Source of the DNA: a virus
Reading direction: 5' to 3' (one strand)
DNA: 21,014 bases
IMG/VR virus record: IMGVR_UViG_3300018415_000053
Location: 1-21,014 of that record
The position numbers were made by a program, and so were the translations under genes. Below the pieces are notes generated by a model. The model saw nothing but the letters and a program-made list of their open reading frames with translations, had not been told where the DNA came from and ran no database searches. Below, one piece after another: positions 1,483-20,909 of the stretch (position 1 is the stretch's first letter; each line of letters starts with the position of its first letter).

Positions 1483-3447
1483 ATGGAAAAAGTTATTAAA
1501 GAAGGACAAACTCAGGTTTACATGGATGGTGCAATTGAGCAACAGGCCGGAGTAAATACTGATGCACCTTACCTTAATACACCTAACCAGCAGTTAATTG
1601 ACATTGTTGGTGTTTTGTTTGCCCAGAGTGGTAAAACTAAACTTGATGGTAGAAATGGTAAGGTTGTTGAAAGTGGTCCAATGACAGACTCACAAGTATT
1701 AGCTATCCTAGTTGGAATGGGAATTCCCCAACAATTAGGAATGAGTGCTATTAATGCCTTCAAAGGAAATCAAATTACTGAAAACAATAATAAACAAAAA
1801 AATCATAACAAAATGAACTTTACACTTGCCGAACTGCATGAAAATGTTATGAAGAGCATTAATGCCTTAAACGAAATGAACTCTGATCAATCCAGAGTTT
1901 CTTATTCTGCTAAAAATGCACTTAACATTTTAGAAGAATCTCTTAAGGCGTTTCCAATGAGATTTAAAAACGAGGAAACAGAAGTAATCAGTGAAGAAAT
2001 TGAAAACAGTGTTAATCCTATGCTTAAGTTTAGCATTGCAAAACAACTTCACAGAGACCTTGCTTCTTCTGAATGGTTAAACCCAATTAAAGAATTAAGA
2101 TCTTATATTGCTGGGGCTTATACAGATACTAAATGGTCTTTCAGAATTTCTGAAGCAATCGAAAGAACAAAAGGCCAAAGAGGTAAACTTTATGAAGGTC
2201 TTGTTAATGACTTAGAAGGTCTTCTTACTGAATCTTCTGATTCTATTAAGACTAAATTCTCTGCTATTGCTGCTAAGAACCCATGGTCTTTAGATTGTAA
2301 AGCCATTGTAAATGAAATGAAGGCAGAAGATAATAAGGCAATTGAAAATGGCGGTGGAGCTATTTCTACTATTCTTTCACCAGTATTGGAATCTGAAAAT
2401 GGATTAACATTCCACCTACACGGTAAGAATTACATTTTTGATGGAAAGACAATTTCTGAAACTAAAGTTGAAGATGCTAGATTCTTTGACGTATTGGAAG
2501 GTTTAGGAATGTTTAAAAATATGAACGGTACTTTAGTTACTTTCGGTGAAAGCGGTAAAACTTTAGAATACAACTTAACTGAAGGTACTCTTAAGCTTGG
2601 TAATGTTGATTTATCAAATTCAAGTATCATTGAAGTAAAAGAAGCATTAATGGTTAACAACTTCTTTGGTTACAGAAATCAATGGAAAATTAATAATGTA
2701 TGTAAGTTCTTTGAATCTGTTGATCTTCTTGCTGAAATGGATAACTTTACAAACATTACATCAACTGAATTTACAAATCTTTTCTTAACACTTATTGGAG
2801 TACAGGAAGGTATCTATGTAAATAAGGTTAATTCTGCAATGCACTTAAATGAAATGGTATTAGTAGAATCTGCAACTGAAACCGTTAAGTTAGTAAAAGA
2901 ATTTATTAACTACGATGCTAGCCCAATTCTTTCTGAAAGACTTATTGCTGAAAATGATGAAGCTGCTAAAGTAGAAAAAGAAAGATCTGAGATTTCTGAT
3001 AAGATTTCTTTCTTAGAAGAAAAGAAAGCTAAAGTTAAGGAAGCAATTAACAAGCTTGGTGAAACTGAAGAACTTACTGAAGCAATGAATCTGTTGGAAG
3101 AAGAAATTTCTAAATTTGAAAAATCTTTACAAGAAACTTATGACAGAGTTGTATTAGGTGGAAATAAAGGTGATAAATCTAAAACTCATAAAGGTGAAGA
3201 TTATGAGGAAGAGGATGAAAAGGACGAATCAGTAACAGAAAAAAAAAGTCGTAAAGAATACCTAGACGATGGATTCGTTGAGGCTGAGGTAAACAAAAGC
3301 GGAAACGGTCTTAGAAAAGGACAAGAAGTTTATGTAAGTGCTGAAGACTATACTTCTCTTGGTGATAGCGATTCATTAGAATGTATAGATTACAAAACAG
3401 GTAAAACAACAATCTGCCCAAAAGGTCAACTTAACGTTAAGATCTAA
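1483..3447 (+). CDS. Large protein of unknown function, coiled coil and acidic tail
   Basis: I do not recognise this 654-residue protein. Residues 1-98 form a small predicted helical domain ending in an N/K/Q-rich linker (99-110). Methionine 111 then begins a long helical region (about 111-290). Residues 300-400 look beta-rich (FHLHGKNYIFDGKTI; TLVTFGESGKTLEYNL). Residues 488-556 form a charged coiled coil, followed by an acidic linker (570-582) and a small C-terminal beta domain (about 590-654) with two cysteines. It has its own late-promoter-like sequence, and a strong terminator follows, so it is probably a single-gene transcript or the last gene of one. Its position among head and tail genes suggests a virion or morphogenesis role, but nothing in the sequence proves it. 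The ATG at 1813 (Met111) could be a second, internal start. Confidence 0.8.
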   Translation: MEKVIKEGQTQVYMDGAIEQQAGVNTDAPYLNTPNQQLIDIVGVLFAQSGKTKLDGRNGKVVESGPMTDSQVLAILVGMGIPQQLGMSAINAFKGNQITENNNKQKNHNKMNFTLAELHENVMKSINALNEMNSDQSRVSYSAKNALNILEESLKAFPMRFKNEETEVISEEIENSVNPMLKFSIAKQLHRDLASSEWLNPIKELRSYIAGAYTDTKWSFRISEAIERTKGQRGKLYEGLVNDLEGLLTESSDSIKTKFSAIAAKNPWSLDCKAIVNEMKAEDNKAIENGGGAISTILSPVLESENGLTFHLHGKNYIFDGKTISETKVEDARFFDVLEGLGMFKNMNGTLVTFGESGKTLEYNLTEGTLKLGNVDLSNSSIIEVKEALMVNNFFGYRNQWKINNVCKFFESVDLLAEMDNFTNITSTEFTNLFLTLIGVQEGIYVNKVNSAMHLNEMVLVESATETVKLVKEFINYDASPILSERLIAENDEAAKVEKERSEISDKISFLEEKKAKVKEAINKLGETEELTEAMNLLEEEISKFEKSLQETYDRVVLGGNKGDKSKTHKGEDYEEEDEKDESVTEKKSRKEYLDDGFVEAEVNKSGNGLRKGQEVYVSAEDYTSLGDSDSLECIDYKTGKTTICPKGQLNVKI

Positions 3448-4969: not shown

Positions 4970-6619
4970 ATGGCAGGTTTTACTGATAGAAGAGGACCAT
5001 TAAGTACTGGTAATCCCGTTAGAAAAATTCTTAAGGATCTTTCTAATTTAGGTATGGCATATGATGATATGATCATACGCAATTCTCGTGCTGTTGGTTT
5101 TACTGAAAATCAAATGGGTTATACATTTAACCCTATGGGCTCTGATTCTGATGATATGTATAGCGCATTTGCTGCATTATCATTAACGGATACTTCAATG
5201 AAAAAGAATATCTCTATCTTTGATAAAGATTATGAAAGAAAGAGAGACCAACTTAGAGAATATGCAGTACAAGATGAAATAGAAGATATCCTAGATGTAA
5301 TAACCGATGAAGCAATTGTTTTTGATGAAAGTAATTATATGGCGTATGCAGACTTTCATGGTCATATTGCATCATCCATTGAAGATGAAATTGGGGATAT
5401 TTACAATAACATTTATAATTACTTTGGTTTTAACGATTCAGTATCTCCCTGGAATTATTTTAGAAAATGGTTAGTTGATGGGTTTCTTGCATTTGAAATA
5501 GTTTACAATGATAAGCAAACAGAGATTATTGGATTCAAAGAATTAGATCCTATCTCCTTAATGCCAGGTATTGATACTGATACTGGTAAAAAACAATGGG
5601 TACAATACAAAGGACAAGGCGCCAAAGAAAGAAAGCTTTGGGATTCTCAAATTATTTACCTTTCTTACTCTCAGGTTAATTCCCCTATGAGAATATCTTA
5701 CGTTGAAAGATTAATAAGATCATTTAACCTTTTAAGAATTATGGAAACAACCAGAATTATATGGGCTGTTTCTAATGCTTCCTTTAAGACTCAATTTATT
5801 ATCCCGGTAGGTGGTAAATCTAAAACAAGAGCAAAACAATCATTGGCACAGTTAATGAATTCCTACAGAGAAGTTGTTGATTTTAACCAAGAAAGCGGCG
5901 AAATTGTTACAAATGGTAAACCAATGTTACCTTTTAATAAAGAATATTGGTTACCATCTAAAGATGGTGAATCACCAGAAATAAGCACAATCGGTGGAGA
6001 TGGTCCAGATTTAGGAGATACTGAATCTCTTAAGTATTTTGCTGATCGTTTAAAGTTAGCTTCTAAGATTCCTTTTTCTAGATTTGATAAAGAAGGTGGT
6101 AATACTTATGATATGGATGCCAGTGGTATGTTAAGAGATGAAATTAAGTTTTCTAAATTTATTAATAGATTAAGATCAATTTGGCAAGAAATCTTAGTTA
6201 AGCCAGTATATCTTCAAATGTGTCTTAATCACCCAGAATTAAAAAATGATGTTTCTTTTAAATCTGGCTTAGGACTTAATTTTGTTAAGGATAATGTATT
6301 TGAAGAAATGAAAGAAATGGAATTGCAAACCAAGAGAGTTGATTTCATTGGTAATCTGAAAACTCAATTAAGTACAATGACAGCAGAAATGGAGGAAATT
6401 CCATACTTTGATTTAGGATTCCTTGTTAAGAGATATGGTGGATTTACTCGTGAGGATTTAAAGGCCAATGCAAGAGCTAAAGAAAGAGCCGATTTAGAGA
6501 AGGAAGGTTATAAAGAAGAGGATATTGAAAAGATCCTTTTAGGAGCCGATAAGGCTGATTTTAAACCAGAAAAGAAAGCAGATGGAATAGATGAAGATCC
6601 ATTAGCCGGCTTTGGATAA
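4970..6619 (+). CDS. 20: Portal vertex protein gp20
   Basis: This is a 549-residue T4-type portal (T4 gp20 has 524), the dodecameric ring through which DNA enters the prohead and to which the neck attaches. Matching segments are DEIEDILDVITDEAIVFDE (102-120), FRKWLVDGFLAFEIVYN (164-180), the helix ERLIRSFNLLRIMETTRI (246-263), EYWLPSKDGESPEISTIGG (325-343), DLGDTESLKYFADRLKLA (347-364) and the following IPFSRFDKEGG (367-377). The C-terminus is charged and lysine-rich (about 500-549). It is followed by the prohead protease and capsid genes in the same order as T4 20-21-22-23. The start has no Shine-Dalgarno sequence, only an A-rich leader. Confidence 0.93.
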   Translation: MAGFTDRRGPLSTGNPVRKILKDLSNLGMAYDDMIIRNSRAVGFTENQMGYTFNPMGSDSDDMYSAFAALSLTDTSMKKNISIFDKDYERKRDQLREYAVQDEIEDILDVITDEAIVFDESNYMAYADFHGHIASSIEDEIGDIYNNIYNYFGFNDSVSPWNYFRKWLVDGFLAFEIVYNDKQTEIIGFKELDPISLMPGIDTDTGKKQWVQYKGQGAKERKLWDSQIIYLSYSQVNSPMRISYVERLIRSFNLLRIMETTRIIWAVSNASFKTQFIIPVGGKSKTRAKQSLAQLMNSYREVVDFNQESGEIVTNGKPMLPFNKEYWLPSKDGESPEISTIGGDGPDLGDTESLKYFADRLKLASKIPFSRFDKEGGNTYDMDASGMLRDEIKFSKFINRLRSIWQEILVKPVYLQMCLNHPELKNDVSFKSGLGLNFVKDNVFEEMKEMELQTKRVDFIGNLKTQLSTMTAEMEEIPYFDLGFLVKRYGGFTREDLKANARAKERADLEKEGYKEEDIEKILLGADKADFKPEKKADGIDEDPLAGFG

Positions 6620-6665: not shown

Positions 6666-8459
6666 ATGTCAGGAAAAAAATTATTGATTCTTGAGAGAGC
6701 AAAGTCAAACCTAGATATAACTACCGGCGAGGACGGTTCGGTTGTATTGGAAGGTGTCTTTACCGAGTTTGGTGTTCGTAACAAGAATAACAGAATATAT
6801 GAGGAAAAGGAAGTAATGCCTCATATTAATGAATTACAAGAAAAAGTTAAAACCAATAAGCTTTTAGGTGAATTAGATCACCCTAAAGATTTTGATGTTA
6901 GTTTGGCTAATGTGTCTCATGTTGTTGAATCATTAGATTACGATCCTGCTAAAAAGCAAGTTATTGGTAAAATTAGATTATTAAATACATCTAAAGGTAA
7001 AGAAGCACAAGCTCTTATTAAAGATGGCATCCCTTTACATATTTCTAGTAGAGCTGCCGGTACGGTAGATGAAAATGGTAAAGTTAAAATTAAGAAATTC
7101 TTTACTTATGACTTAGTAGCAGATCCTGGCTTTGAAAATGCTGAGTTATCAAGAGTAAATGAATCTTTTGGTTTTGGTAATGATGAAGGTATATTAATCT
7201 ACGAAATGGAAGAAACTGAAAATAACACCGATAATAAAAAAGATCTAACAATGGAAAATAACAATTTTGTAACTGTTGAAGATTTTCAAAAGTATACGGA
7301 ATATGTATCCGGAGTTCTAAGTAATGTTAAAGAATCGGCCAATTCTAACAATGATGAGGTGATCGAGAAACTTATTAAGTATTCCGAGCATATTGCAGAG
7401 AAGGTAAATCAGGTTACTGATTATGCTGAATACTTATCTGAAAATCTAGATAAAAACATTTCATACTCTGATTACTTAGCAGAGAATGTAAATTCAATTA
7501 AAGACTATGCGTCTTACTTGGCCGAAGAACTTGACGGAAGTATTCAATATGCTGAACATGTAGCTGAAATGGCTGATAAAGGAATTCAATATTCTAACTA
7601 TGTTGCTGAAAACTTAGAAAAGAGCATTGACTATTCCGAATATGTAGCCGAAAAGGTTGATCAAAACATTGCTTATTCTGAGTATCTTGGCGAAGGTCTT
7701 GAAAAGAGTATTAAGTATTCTGAGTACATCGCTGAAAATGTAAACTCTGTTGAAGGTGAAGCACTTAACGAAGGAATGGCCGTAAACGCTGAAGCTATGC
7801 CATCAATGGAAGAAATGCAAAAGATGGTCGATGAAGGAATGACATATGAACAAGTTTGTGAACAATATCCTTCATGCGATAAGGCAAGATTAAAAGAAAT
7901 GTATGAAGCTTGTGGTAAGAAGCACGAAGGAAAGGATTACAAAAATTCTATTGAAGAAAAATTAGATAAACTGATTGCTGCTGCAGAAACTAAAAATGTA
8001 TCCGAAATGCATTTTATGAACTTCTTAGGAGAGGCTAAGAAGAATGAATTTAATTCTTTATCCGAAAATAAGCAAGCTGCAATAGTTGAATCAATGAATG
8101 CTCAACCAATTATGTCTACTATTCAGGCAGAAAACATTTGGGAATCTAATTTCATTGAAAAGAAAAGAGAATTAAATGTAATTGATGATATGCCTGAAAA
8201 GTTCAGAGCAAAATGGAATAACCTTTCTGAAGCTCGCCAAGCTCAAATCATCGCGGAATCTAAATTCCACCCAGTTAATAACCAATACGGCATTAACAAC
8301 TTCTGGTCTACAAGAGATCTTAGAGATACTCAAGTTATAACAGAATCCATTAATGAAAGTAAAACCGCTGCTGAGGCTGCAAACAAAAAAGAACCATTAG
8401 TAAATGAATCTTTTGCTGCTGACCTTATCAACAAAGTTAAGTTTAATCTGGGTAAATAA
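6666..8459 (+). CDS. 21: Prohead protease (gp21-like) fused to a repeat-containing scaffold (gp22-like)
   Basis: This 597-residue protein is about as long as T4 gp21 (212) and gp22 (269) combined, with extra. Residues 1-165 are the protease: FTEFGVRNKNNRIY (32-45), LGELDHPKDF (67-76) with probable catalytic His72, and PLHISSRAAGTV (123-134) with probable catalytic Ser127 or Ser128. Residues 180-200 are a polar linker. From about 200 the protein is helical and acidic, as expected of a core scaffold, with nine exact-length 14-residue repeats (239-364). A further helical region runs to 597, with a basic C-terminal helix after NESF. Many (L/I/V)-x-E sites, the T4 protease's target type, occur in the scaffold half (for example LAE, IAE, ITE, INE). 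An ATG at 7251 (Met196) at the linker's end could be a separate start for the scaffold, as Nu3 is inside lambda C. No separate gp22 gene is seen between this gene and the capsid gene. Confidence 0.85.
   Translation: MSGKKLLILERAKSNLDITTGEDGSVVLEGVFTEFGVRNKNNRIYEEKEVMPHINELQEKVKTNKLLGELDHPKDFDVSLANVSHVVESLDYDPAKKQVIGKIRLLNTSKGKEAQALIKDGIPLHISSRAAGTVDENGKVKIKKFFTYDLVADPGFENAELSRVNESFGFGNDEGILIYEMEETENNTDNKKDLTMENNNFVTVEDFQKYTEYVSGVLSNVKESANSNNDEVIEKLIKYSEHIAEKVNQVTDYAEYLSENLDKNISYSDYLAENVNSIKDYASYLAEELDGSIQYAEHVAEMADKGIQYSNYVAENLEKSIDYSEYVAEKVDQNIAYSEYLGEGLEKSIKYSEYIAENVNSVEGEALNEGMAVNAEAMPSMEEMQKMVDEGMTYEQVCEQYPSCDKARLKEMYEACGKKHEGKDYKNSIEEKLDKLIAAAETKNVSEMHFMNFLGEAKKNEFNSLSENKQAAIVESMNAQPIMSTIQAENIWESNFIEKKRELNVIDDMPEKFRAKWNNLSEARQAQIIAESKFHPVNNQYGINNFWSTRDLRDTQVITESINESKTAAEAANKKEPLVNESFAADLINKVKFNLGK
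7380..7757 (+). repeat. Nine tandem 42-base repeats encoding 14-residue units
   Basis: Nine units begin with Tyr at residues 239, 253, 267, 281, 295, 309, 323, 337 and 351 of the protease-scaffold protein, with no insertion or deletion. The consensus is Y-(S/A)-(E/D)-(Y/H)-(L/V/I)-A-E-(N/K)-(V/L)-(N/D)-x-(S/N)-I-x. Fourteen residues equal two heptads, consistent with a coiled coil. Every unit carries (L/V/I)-(A/S/G)-E, which resembles a gp21 cleavage site. The DNA copies have diverged at silent positions, so this is a protein-level repeat. Confidence 0.9.
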
Positions 8460-8540: not shown

Positions 8541-10295
8541 ATGTACGCAAATCAATTAATTAACGAGGCTGAGGTTCAAAAGACCTGGGGCCCTATCATT
8601 GAGGAGGCTACTGGTATCACTGAAAAGTCTAAGTTATCTTGGATGTCTAAGTACTGCCACTACCACAACCTTAATGAGAGTGTATATAATACTGTACACT
8701 TAAATCCTAACATGAATGTTCAAGGTATGAACGCTGTGGAATTCCCAAGCGATCCTACTACAATGAACAACTTCAACAACGGTATGACTTCTGGTTCTGG
8801 TGACAGACCATTTTCTTTGTTGCCACTTGCTATGCAGGTTGCTGCTCAGACTGTAGGTTTAGACTTAGTACCTGTTGTACCAATGCAAGGTCCTATGGGA
8901 GTTCTTACTTACTTAGACTTTGTATACGGTGGAGGTAGAGTAACAGATGCTGGTGGTAAAGTTACCGATTCTGCTCCTCTTTTAATTAAAGCTCCATTGA
9001 CAATGGCGTCTGGTGTTGCTGCTTTAGCTGTAAATGATCTCGTTTACGCTTCTTCTGCTGCAAGAACTGGTACTGAAGGTGCATCTTACGAATTAACTTA
9101 CGTAGGAAAATCTAGAATTGACGGTTACGCAATCTTCCGTGTAAGAGGTAACGGTACTTTAGATCCAACTACTGCAGGTTCTTTCGCTCAAGGTGAAGAA
9201 GGTTATGAAGCTATTTACGAAGCTGTTGCAAACGCTGTAAATTTCTATGATGCTGCTGCTGCTCAAGCTGGTGATGTAGTTGGTACTTGGGACGGTGCTG
9301 CTGAGTATGTTAAAGCTTTAGAAGATCACATTCCTGGATTCTCCGGTAATGCTTTTGAAGATAACAACCCATTAAACGGTGCTCCTACCTTTACTAATGA
9401 ATCTATTGATGGAACTGATCCTTACCAAAGAGGTGTAGGTGAAGCCACTCCGGATAACATTATGGGATTAAGCTTGTTTAACAAGTCAGTTGCTGCTAAG
9501 ACTTACCAAGTTGCTGCCGCTGTGACCAGAGAGCAAGTTCAAGATCTTAAGCAATTCGGAATTGATGCAGTTGCTCAAGTAGAAGCTGTATTGGTTAATG
9601 AGTTAACTCAGTCAATCAACAAATACATCTTGGATAGAATCTTCAGAAATGGAGCTCAAAATTCAACTAATGTAAACGCTGTTGATGGATTGAACTTATC
9701 TATTTACTTAGGTAATGCTGCTGATGCTGCTACTGCTACTGTAAACTTAGGTCCAGGTAATGGAACTAACACTAACGTAACTTATACATTGAATAAGACG
9801 TTGGTAGGAACAGGTGGCGAAACACAAGGATCATTACAACGTAGATTGTATACTAAGATTCTTGCTGCTTCTAACTTGATCGCAACAAGAGGTCGTAGAG
9901 GTCCTGCTACCTTCGCAGTATGTTCTGGAGAAATTGCTACGGCACTTCAGGATATCGCAGGTTTCGTACCTTACCCACTATCAAATACAATCAACCAAGC
10001 CGGCGGATCTTTATATCCAATCGGTGCTTTGGCTGGTGTAACTATTTATGTTGATCCAAACATGGCTTGGACTGACTATAGAGTTGCTGTAGGTAGAAAA
10101 GGTGATGGTAATTCTCCTGGTTTGGTATTCATGCCTTACTTAATGGCTGAATCTGTTGAAACAATCGCAGAAGGAACTATGGCTCCTAAAATCGCGGTTA
10201 AATCTAGATTCACTTTAGTAGACGCTGGATTCCACCCAGAAACTATGTACTACACTGTAGGATTCGCATTCGGTGCTTCTGTATCGATCATCTAA
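8541..10295 (+). CDS. 23: Major capsid protein gp23
   Basis: This 584-residue protein is a T4-type capsid protein (T4 gp23 has 521) of the HK97 fold. Its N-terminus KTWGPIIEEATGI (14-26) resembles gp23's NKWKPLLEGEG. DLVPVVPMQGPMGVLTYLDFVYG (108-130) matches gp23's DICGVQPMNSPTGQVF segment, and VTREQVQDLKQFGIDA (328-343) matches the TTELAQDLRAVHGLDA helix. The middle region is Ala/Gly/Thr-rich and longer than in T4. Candidate maturation cleavage sites are LNE|S after Glu46, the best placed, and INE|A after Glu9. The gene follows the protease-scaffold gene and ends at a strong terminator. Codon use looks more uniform and G/C-richer than its neighbours, as expected of a very highly expressed gene. 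A GroES-like protein near the window's end may assist its folding. Confidence 0.93.
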   Translation: MYANQLINEAEVQKTWGPIIEEATGITEKSKLSWMSKYCHYHNLNESVYNTVHLNPNMNVQGMNAVEFPSDPTTMNNFNNGMTSGSGDRPFSLLPLAMQVAAQTVGLDLVPVVPMQGPMGVLTYLDFVYGGGRVTDAGGKVTDSAPLLIKAPLTMASGVAALAVNDLVYASSAARTGTEGASYELTYVGKSRIDGYAIFRVRGNGTLDPTTAGSFAQGEEGYEAIYEAVANAVNFYDAAAAQAGDVVGTWDGAAEYVKALEDHIPGFSGNAFEDNNPLNGAPTFTNESIDGTDPYQRGVGEATPDNIMGLSLFNKSVAAKTYQVAAAVTREQVQDLKQFGIDAVAQVEAVLVNELTQSINKYILDRIFRNGAQNSTNVNAVDGLNLSIYLGNAADAATATVNLGPGNGTNTNVTYTLNKTLVGTGGETQGSLQRRLYTKILAASNLIATRGRRGPATFAVCSGEIATALQDIAGFVPYPLSNTINQAGGSLYPIGALAGVTIYVDPNMAWTDYRVAVGRKGDGNSPGLVFMPYLMAESVETIAEGTMAPKIAVKSRFTLVDAGFHPETMYYTVGFAFGASVSII

Positions 10296-10393: not shown

Positions 10394-11488
10394 ATGAGAA
10401 AGGTAAAATCATACGATGAATTTGTAAATGAAAATATTGGAGCTGCATTAGGTAGTCCTGTTAAATTTGTAAAGATTAAAAATAATGCTAAAAAGTATCA
10501 ACAGGCTAAAGTACAACAGGCTTTAAATAATGTTGACTTTGAAAAGAAAAAGCAAGCATCTAAAGGTGACTTAGATAAAAAGGCAATGGATACTCTTAAG
10601 GCTGCTAATGCTGCAAAGAATCAGGCCCTTAAAGATAAAGCAAGTGCTATTAATCAGAGAATGAAAGATTTGGCTACCACAGATGGTCTTAAAAAAGTTG
10701 TAACTCTTGCTACAACTAAAGCAAATGTAGCAGCAGCAGAAACTGCACTTAAATCAGCAGATGCCGAAGAAACTAAACAACTAAAAGTTAGAATTCAAAA
10801 ACTTAACAAAAGAGCCGCCGATGCTCAGAGTGATCTTAAGGATTATGAATCTTCTGCAAAGGAAGAGCCACAACAAAAGAATGAACCGGCTACACAGAAA
10901 GTAGATGATGTTGGTAAAAATGAAGATCCTCAGGGCGATGCTAAAAAGAAAGCTGTAGAAGATGCACAAAAAGAAGTAGATAAAGCAAAGGCAGCATATG
11001 ACGCAGTTAAAGACGGTGATGATGAAAAGGCTAAACTTCAAGCTGAAATCAAATTTAAACAAGCACAACAGAAAAAAGCTAAGGCTGAAGGTAATACTGA
11101 ATTAGTACAAGGGCTTGGTGATGACATAGGAGAAGTTATGAAAAAGATACAGGATTTAGATAAAACTCCTGATGATCCTACTGCAAAATTAGAAGCTGAT
11201 ATTAAAGCCTATAATGATAACATAGAAGCTGAACGAACTACTATGAATAAAGCTGTTAAAGATTTAGAACAGGCCAAAAGAGATTTAAAAACTGGTAGAG
11301 GTTCAGAAGAACAGGTTCAAAAATTACAAAAGGCAATCGAAGATAGTAAAGAAGATATTGCTGAACTTAAGAAAAAGGAAGCTGATGCTAAAAAGCAATT
11401 AGCAAATTTATCAAAACCTAACGAATCATTTCAACCGCTTGAGGAATCTGTTTCCGAAAAGTTTAGAAGGTTAATGAAGAATGTATAA
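10394..11488 (+). CDS. Probable internal head or prohead-core protein with capsid-targeting N-terminus
   Basis: This 364-residue protein is very rich in Ala, Lys, Glu, Asp and Gln and is almost wholly helical, with coiled-coil stretches at about 35-160 and 180-340. Its N-terminus, MRKVKSYDEFVNEN, closely resembles the capsid-targeting sequence of T4 internal proteins (MKTYQEFIAEA), which directs them into the prohead and is removed by gp21 after the Glu. Here the equivalent cut would follow Glu13 (VNE|N). The C-terminus, NESFQPLEESVSEKF plus a basic end, resembles that of the protease-scaffold protein (NESFAADLINKVKF). It lies next to the capsid gene behind its own promoter-like sequence. It may be an internal protein packaged with DNA or a second core scaffold like gp67/gp68; the sequence does not decide between them. 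Confidence 0.65.
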   Translation: MRKVKSYDEFVNENIGAALGSPVKFVKIKNNAKKYQQAKVQQALNNVDFEKKKQASKGDLDKKAMDTLKAANAAKNQALKDKASAINQRMKDLATTDGLKKVVTLATTKANVAAAETALKSADAEETKQLKVRIQKLNKRAADAQSDLKDYESSAKEEPQQKNEPATQKVDDVGKNEDPQGDAKKKAVEDAQKEVDKAKAAYDAVKDGDDEKAKLQAEIKFKQAQQKKAKAEGNTELVQGLGDDIGEVMKKIQDLDKTPDDPTAKLEADIKAYNDNIEAERTTMNKAVKDLEQAKRDLKTGRGSEEQVQKLQKAIEDSKEDIAELKKKEADAKKQLANLSKPNESFQPLEESVSEKFRRLMKNV

Positions 11489-20044: not shown

Positions 20045-20653
20045 ATGGAAGAAAACCCGAAAGAAAAGTTTAGAGATAGCATTGGGGATTTACTTAATGA
20101 TTTACCTGATGAAGTTCCTGGATTAGATGATACTCCACAATTACCTAAGGTTAGGGCAGAAGGTACTCAAGCCGTTGCATTAACTAAAGCCAAAGGAAAG
20201 GCTAAAAAGGTAATGACTAGTCTTCTTAAATTTTATTTAAGTGAAGAAATTATAGCCGAGCATGAATACATTCAAGCAAAGGCACAATTAGACGAATATG
20301 CTTTAGGAATGTTGATAAGGCAGATGGAGAACAGCGAAGTTGCTATATCTAGTTTAATGGACATAATTAATGAAGGGGATGTTTCTCCTAGGATGTTTGA
20401 AGTACTTAGTGATTTGCAAAGAACTCTTTTAGACATCATAAAGAGTCAAACCATGTACATGGTAGCTATTGAAGAAAATGCTAAAAAGACAAGTAGAGAT
20501 ATAGATGTTTATCATGGAAGCCCTGAAGGGGATTCAAGATCAAAAACATCAGGATTAAAATCTAGAGGTACTAAAGATTTAATGAGAGCATTACAAGAAA
20601 CTATTAACGAAGAAGATATTCAAGATGTTGACGAAGATGAAAATGAAGAATGA
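20045..20653 (+). CDS. 16: Small terminase subunit gp16-like
   Basis: This 202-residue protein matches the layout of T4 gp16 (164 residues), which forms an oligomer that regulates the large terminase during headful packaging. Shared features are an acidic N-terminus with DLPDEVPGLDD (19-29; gp16: DLPGIDGEE), a helical core, the SPRMFEVLSDLQRTLLDIIK helix (114-133; gp16: [22 protein letters not shown]) and YHGSPEG (156-162; gp16: FMGSPTEL). Between these is a long helix pair typical of the oligomer core. The C-terminus is acidic. The GroES-like gene begins inside its last codons (11-base overlap). The assignment rests on several matched segments in the right order. Confidence 0.75.
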   Translation: MEENPKEKFRDSIGDLLNDLPDEVPGLDDTPQLPKVRAEGTQAVALTKAKGKAKKVMTSLLKFYLSEEIIAEHEYIQAKAQLDEYALGMLIRQMENSEVAISSLMDIINEGDVSPRMFEVLSDLQRTLLDIIKSQTMYMVAIEENAKKTSRDIDVYHGSPEGDSRSKTSGLKSRGTKDLMRALQETINEEDIQDVDEDENEE

Positions 20654-20909
20654 TTACATTCTCACTGAAGAAATACCACAAGAAACACAAACCAAGGGAG
20701 GTTTATGGATTCCTGAAGAAAAGTATAACCGCAAGGCTTTAGTTATTGAAGCATCAGATGGATTAGAAGTTAAGAAAGGTGACAAAGTAATAAAAACAAT
20801 AGGAAAGGGTACAGAATATACCTTTGATGATAAAAGATATGAAATCTTACATATTAATCATATCCTAGCCGTAATAAAAGAAGATGCCACAGAAACCACA
20901 AGCACCTAG
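20643..20909 (+). CDS. GroES-like co-chaperonin, gp31-type function
   Basis: This 88-residue protein follows the GroES plan: DYILTEEIPQETQTKGGLWIP (4-24) with a K-G-G-hydrophobic-x-x-P mobile-loop region, KALVIEASDGLEVKKGDKV (31-49; GroES: V-K-V-G-D-x-V), GKGTEYTFDDKRYEIL (54-69) and INHILAVI (71-78; GroES: DDILAVI). T4 gp31 replaces host GroES for folding of gp23; a phage co-chaperonin here would suit the same role. ATG 20643 gives an 88-residue product; ATGs at 20625 and 20637 are in frame, but the family begins near MKNDYIL. The mobile loop is much shorter than in GroES. It overlaps the genes on both sides and lies among the packaging genes. Confidence 0.75.
   Translation: MKNDYILTEEIPQETQTKGGLWIPEEKYNRKALVIEASDGLEVKKGDKVIKTIGKGTEYTFDDKRYEILHINHILAVIKEDATETTST

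Follow-up and report, generated by a model that had tools for sequence, protein, structure and literature searches.

What is a scaffolding protein doing with nine 14-residue repeats, each carrying what looks like a protease site, and is it the cutting of the repeats or their number that matters to the phage? The question is raised by a 597-aa protein encoded in an uninterrupted open frame of the window, the 21,014-nucleotide stretch of DNA analyzed here, which comes from a large, bacteria-infecting, uncultured virus. The frame lies between a gp20-like portal gene (4970–6619; Portal_T4 match, 2.3e-72) and a gp23-like major capsid protein gene (8541–10295; Gp23 match, 1.6e-32). As detailed below, the 597-aa protein is a T4 gp21-type (S77) prohead protease joined to a scaffold domain within a T4-like head module. 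Table 1 collects the features discussed.

Table 1. Features of the protease–scaffold fusion and of the adjoining capsid gene (window coordinates; a slash marks a putative cut).
Feature	Position	Strand	Basis
Protease–scaffold fusion ORF, 597 aa	6666..8459	+	Open frame; PF03420 1.8e-14; phrog_207 1.3e-36; flanked by portal and capsid genes
S77/gp21-type prohead protease domain, residues 1 to about 160, H72/S127/S128 invariant	6666..7145	+	PF03420; fold match to T4 gp21 (5jbl); invariant residues
VNE/S, residues 164–167, putative protease/scaffold cut	7155..7166	+	Identical in 37/37 close homologues; N165–E166 invariant in all aligned relatives
Met196, where in-frame initiation probably yields a scaffold-only product of 402 aa (to 8459)	7251..7253	+	Present in all relatives; synonymous minimum in group A
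Degenerate extra unit YTEYVSGVLSNVKE, residues 210–223	7293..7334	+	Fits the unit pattern in most group A proteins, 29 residues ahead of unit 1
Nine 14-residue units, residues 239–364, predicted two-heptad helical rod	7380..7757	+	Register; nine in 49/49 group A proteins; period 3.5; AF2 helix
Module of about 45 residues, residues 380–424, in some relatives only	7803..7937	+	Recurs in another protein of a related phage
LNE/S, residues 44–47 in the N-terminal part of the major capsid protein, putative propeptide cut	8670..8681	+	37/37 group A

The protease assignment draws on both sequence and structure. The PF03420 match scores 54.1 bits against a curated cut-off of 27, a model of the full-length protein has T4 gp21 as its top PDB match (5jbl; E 1.6e-8, TM by target 0.70), and 5jbl is the sole match in a profile search (9.3e-5). 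H72 and S127/S128, candidates for two of the catalytic residues, are invariant across the aligned relatives. T4 gp21 (MEROPS S77) thus shares fold, family, and a gene position between portal and capsid with residues 1–160, and it carries ITE/S near its own C terminus, just as the fusion has an [LIV]xE/S site behind its catalytic domain. The two differ in that T4 gp21 has its own gene, whereas the protease of the fusion is continuous with the scaffold, and in that the fusion enzyme seemingly accepts V at P3.

The interval between portal and capsid genes holds no separate scaffold gene, and the second half of the 597-aa protein is therefore the probable scaffold. Like T4 gp22, it leads from the protease to the capsid gene, is rich in protease sites of the [LI]xE type, and is mainly helical, by prediction in this case. 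Unlike T4 gp22, which is encoded by its own gene and has no 14-residue array, it is fused to the protease and contains one. No sequence similarity between the two could be detected (hhalign E 0.41; BLASTP E 0.062 over 21 residues), so homology was dropped and the scaffold half is gp22-like only in place and character. Matches of the array to DUF5601, ApoLp-III, and other Pfam families were weak, fell under the cut-off, and are in keeping with helix-like composition.

The array consists of nine units of 14 residues each, beginning at residue 239 (base 7380): YSEHIAEKVNQVTD, YAEYLSENLDKNIS, YSDYLAENVNSIKD, YASYLAEELDGSIQ, YAEHVAEMADKGIQ, YSNYVAENLEKSID, YSEYVAEKVDQNIA, YSEYLGEGLEKSIK, and YSEYIAENVNSVEG. 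As the sequence-only reading of this DNA had noted, they stand in perfect register, and every one has [LVI][ASG]E at positions 5–7. That reading called the repeats exact, which is true of their length and register and not of their sequence: the DNA copies in the window are about 62–81% identical to a reference copy, and Tandem Repeats Finder did not report the 42-base array.

To place the array among its relatives we drew on homologues from IMG/VR and phage records. Group A is the window's own family (about 70–100% identity; its records are genome fragments without completeness estimates), group B a second lineage (about 43–53% identity over aligned columns), and group C a huge-phage lineage (about 37% identity) that takes in LR756501, LR756502, LR756504, and LR745206 (635–735 kb). 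Within one group A protein, the units share a mean of only 43% of their residues with one another, whereas orthologous units of different group A phages are 84% identical, indicating that the array is old and that its number has been maintained by selection. The corresponding DNA identities (59% on average from unit to unit versus 82% between orthologous units) rule out a recent DNA duplication or a repeat artefact. The presence of the array in 49 distinct close homologues as well as in more distant lineages places it beyond chance.

Scored blind to position 7, nine units are found in all 49 distinct group A proteins and in 9 of the 11 group B proteins. In group B, L082 departs from nine with about 12 units, and L164 scores in part only; L165, which has nine, stands apart from the other group B members in the protease tree, on weakly supported forks. 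A strict pattern gives 11 units in 49 of the 57 group C proteins and 10, 12, or 13 in the others; when the scoring is relaxed to include degenerate flanking units, the range becomes 11–16. The uncultured, unannotated genomes LR756500–LR756504 and LR745206 (462–735 kb) share the fusion, the type of unit, the Met, and the NE site with the window, but they have 10–13 units to its nine, those of LR756500 being about 12 and degenerate. Throughout groups A and B the spacing within the array is 14, whereas the linker behind it is strongly variable in length. A 45-residue module of the linker (MPSMEEMQKMVDEGMTYEQVCEQYPSCDKARLKEMYEACGKKHE) is absent in short-linker relatives; it recurs, with 36% identity (1.1e-17), in a 666-aa protein of a group B phage (L266, 677–2677).

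The composition of the units points to a helix with a repeating hydrophobic face. The hydrophobic spectrum of the array has its maximum at 3.50 residues; a 14-residue repeat permits several harmonics, and the dominant one here is that of a coiled coil. Positions 2, 6, 9, and 13, the a/d positions of two heptads, form the best buried stripe, and hydrophobic averages suggest that Tyr1, Tyr/His4, Glu7, residue 8, and Lys11 face outward. An AF2 model places helix at residues 230–261 and 268–358 with a pLDDT of about 35–49; long helices modelled without their partners often score this low, but we count the low confidence in the repeats against our preferred explanation. Heptad periodicity within a helix predicted from a single chain is consistent with a coiled-coil-like rod, which agrees with the rod proposed from sequence. 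Nine units of helix would measure about 190 Å (126 × 1.5 Å). Each unit would contribute two heptads to a long coiled-coil helix, and the outward-facing Tyr1, Tyr/His4, and Glu7, recurring every 14 residues (about 21 Å), would suit rods that pack alongside one another or touch the shell.

The high conservation of these same outer-face residues could also be read as the mark of a multivalent docking strip, with one capsid or internal protein bound per unit, in which case the copy number of the partner and not length would be conserved. A possible partner is encoded elsewhere in the record of a 508-kb phage, where a stand-alone 65-aa ORF (L267, 618–815, minus strand) amounts to about three similar 14-residue units (YQEYVMEALNAQID, YSEYIAKELDKSIS, and YTEYLNSTSDELIS), mostly without the Glu7 site. 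However, such an ORF was seen once, in a different lineage, and a search of the window yielded no partner with a matching repeat, which makes docking a decidedly unlikely explanation of the array.

A different function was proposed by the sequence-only reading, in which the unit is a protease cassette and the rod is cut after each Glu7 into uniform 14-residue peptides. Glu7 is indeed present in 332 of 333 unit copies in group A and in nearly all copies in group C, and P3 of the unit is always L, I, or V. The density of [LIV]xE, 7.1 per 100 residues in the array and 6.1 in the other scaffold, resembles that of T4 gp22 (7.4) as opposed to mature T4 gp23 (1.1), and T4 gp22 is degraded by gp21 to small peptides (PMC9958956). 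T4 gp21 cleaves after L/I-X-E and is documented to do so for L and I only (PMC9026906). Outside the repeats, the scaffold has 17 [LIV]xE sites where about 6 are expected, with L, I, and V each about threefold enriched at P3 and M, A, and F not significantly so; given the enrichment of V-x-E, V at P3 is plausibly accepted by the protease of the fusion. As evidence against cleavage, V at P3 is weakened accordingly, the V-x-E motif being enriched like L-x-E and I-x-E both in the non-repeat scaffold and in the protein encoded at 1483–3447. The P1' residue was likewise dropped as decisive evidence against cleavage, because the N that commonly follows E in the units also follows the E at the aligned site of the capsid protein, both in group B (LYE/N in most members) and in group C (INE/N).

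Cutting at every unit is nevertheless not a conserved property. Most group B members have lost the E of three units, position 7 being K or S in unit 1, L in unit 4, and K, T, or S in unit 9, and yet they keep nine units in unchanged register; L082, a 462-kb phage, has Glu7 in about half of its units. As stated, the proposal that each unit is cut to yield uniform peptides is not supported by these relatives; what does find support is the gp22-like density of sites in the scaffold. Moreover, the conservation of Tyr1 and Tyr/His4 comes close to that of Glu7 although neither is needed for cleavage, which argues that the unit is constrained by structure. The recurrence of the site adds little, since permuting the 14 columns identically in all units places [LIV]xE in one register in 9/9 units in 7.7% of cases; the nine cleavage sites of the array are in effect a single site copied nine times. 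Many units may still be cut, and cutting at each unit is possible as far as the sequence goes, but we consider the cassette unlikely to be what the unit is for.

At the opposite extreme, Glu7 might be purely structural, engaged in salt bridges or rod–rod contacts, and the rod might be removed by cuts before S/A/G outside the repeats or as a large fragment. Such a role would suit the outward position of Glu7 in the heptad pattern, beside Tyr4 and Lys11, and the retention of register in group B despite the loss of E. Of 17 conserved [LIVMFA]xE sites outside the array, 11 are followed by S, A, or G, as against one unit (unit 8, with G in some members) in the array of the window's family. This distinction loses force because the capsid proteins of groups B and C have N as P1' of their aligned site, because V/L/I-x-E is enriched across the scaffold generally, and because T4 gp22 is itself broken down to small peptides (PMC9958956), so that an exclusively structural Glu7 appears somewhat unlikely.

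The better-supported reading of these comparisons is that the conserved property is the number of 14-residue units, or the length of the rod, rather than cutting at each unit. The suggestion that unit number sets scaffold length holds up insofar as the number is fixed; control of length may follow from it. As a whole, we find it fairly probable that the nine units form a rod of conserved length in a core scaffold of the gp22 type, which follows a gp21-type prohead protease in the same chain and is provided with an internal start and maturation cuts. Unit number would be its conserved length parameter. On maturation the protease would probably release itself at VNE/S (after residue 166), and the scaffold would probably be broken at [LIV]-x-E sites, those of many units among them, into fragments that exit; this scheme does not require that every unit be cut.

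A bolder version of the preferred reading takes the 14-residue unit as the quantum of a molecular ruler, in which unit count sets rod length and rod length sets head size, while the unit also carries the cut site for dismantling. We think it unlikely that all of this applies; if it did, the 9 units of the window's lineage and the 10–13 of the huge phages would be tied to head size. It is a long-standing question how head size is determined by the T4-type core, and a review notes little progress on the size mechanism and the structure of the core (PMC3012670). A scaffold built from countable units, with a count that is fixed per lineage and differs in huge phages, allows the idea of length control to be tested directly.

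The preferred model also has to account for how protease and scaffold are separated and how enough scaffold is made. A cut at the conserved VNE/S site would free the protease from the scaffold; for T4 gp21 itself, processing at the C terminus has been suggested (PMC9026906). Thirty residues past this junction, within an otherwise variable linker, Met196 (ATG at 7251) is kept in every group; the single apparent exception in the survey reads MNR, which the search pattern failed to catch. In group A, codons 188–198 have the lowest amino-acid-corrected synonymous variation in the gene (ratio about 0.30). The same analysis revealed no constraint at the internal start in group C, which we count against the preferred explanation. 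The T4 core contains about 580 copies of gp22 versus 55–100 of gp21 (PMC9958956, PMC5694885), an excess that a pure 1:1 fusion could not reach, and a nested start is therefore the simplest solution. We infer from the conservation of Met196 that initiation probably also occurs there and provides scaffold in excess over protease. Such a start would show a route from a protease–scaffold fusion to scaffold excess. It is a different thing from the second start of T4 gene 21, Met45, which produces a short gp21 (PMC9026906) and not a scaffold-only product. We also considered frameshifting on the A-rich run that precedes ATG 7251 as a way of splitting the two halves, and dropped it because the upstream sequences of group C have no such run.

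Phage lambda offers a parallel in its nested protease and scaffold genes C and Nu3, which share one frame and in which an in-frame start produces the scaffold alone. The fusion likewise holds protease and scaffold in one frame, its nested start would yield scaffold alone, and the in-frame internal start codon is conserved in every group (the synonymous minimum in group A only). The lambda C protease, however, belongs to an unrelated family, and for the fusion it is conservation that speaks for internal initiation. A literature search on internal initiation and Nu3 found nothing to the point.

Fusions of this kind are also found outside groups A–C. Cultured examples are Tenacibaculum phages PTm1 and pT24 and Chryseobacterium phage MA9V-1, whose "prohead core scaffolding protein and protease" is, as in the window, a single ORF upstream of the capsid gene, with the protease followed by a scaffold-like part, but these proteins have neither the 14-residue array nor a Met at the place of Met196. 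The MA9V-1 fusion (L089, 3911–7954), a protein of 1347 aa, contains many regularly placed NES/NEA motifs that resemble interdomain cut sites. Two partial relatives occur in Bacteroidota assemblies, and together with the Bacteroidota hosts of the array-less fusion phages they make a Bacteroidota host likely for the window's virus. A second, short protease-like ORF (134 aa), distant from the head genes, is present in a 429-kb record of the L082 phage (L268, 769–1173, minus strand).

Two other proteins of the window may belong to the head. The protein encoded at 10394–11488 begins with MRKVKSYDEFVNEN, which looks like a head-targeting sequence with a VNE/N cut, and the 666-aa protein of L266 has a similar N terminus (MSKLKNFDEFVNEN). 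The 654-aa product of 1483–3447, which matches no PHROG family, has 35 [LIV]xE sites versus 16 expected and is probably an inner head protein processed by the protease. Finally, the window encodes a GroES-like co-chaperonin at 20625–20909 (phrog_3188, 1.5e-14).
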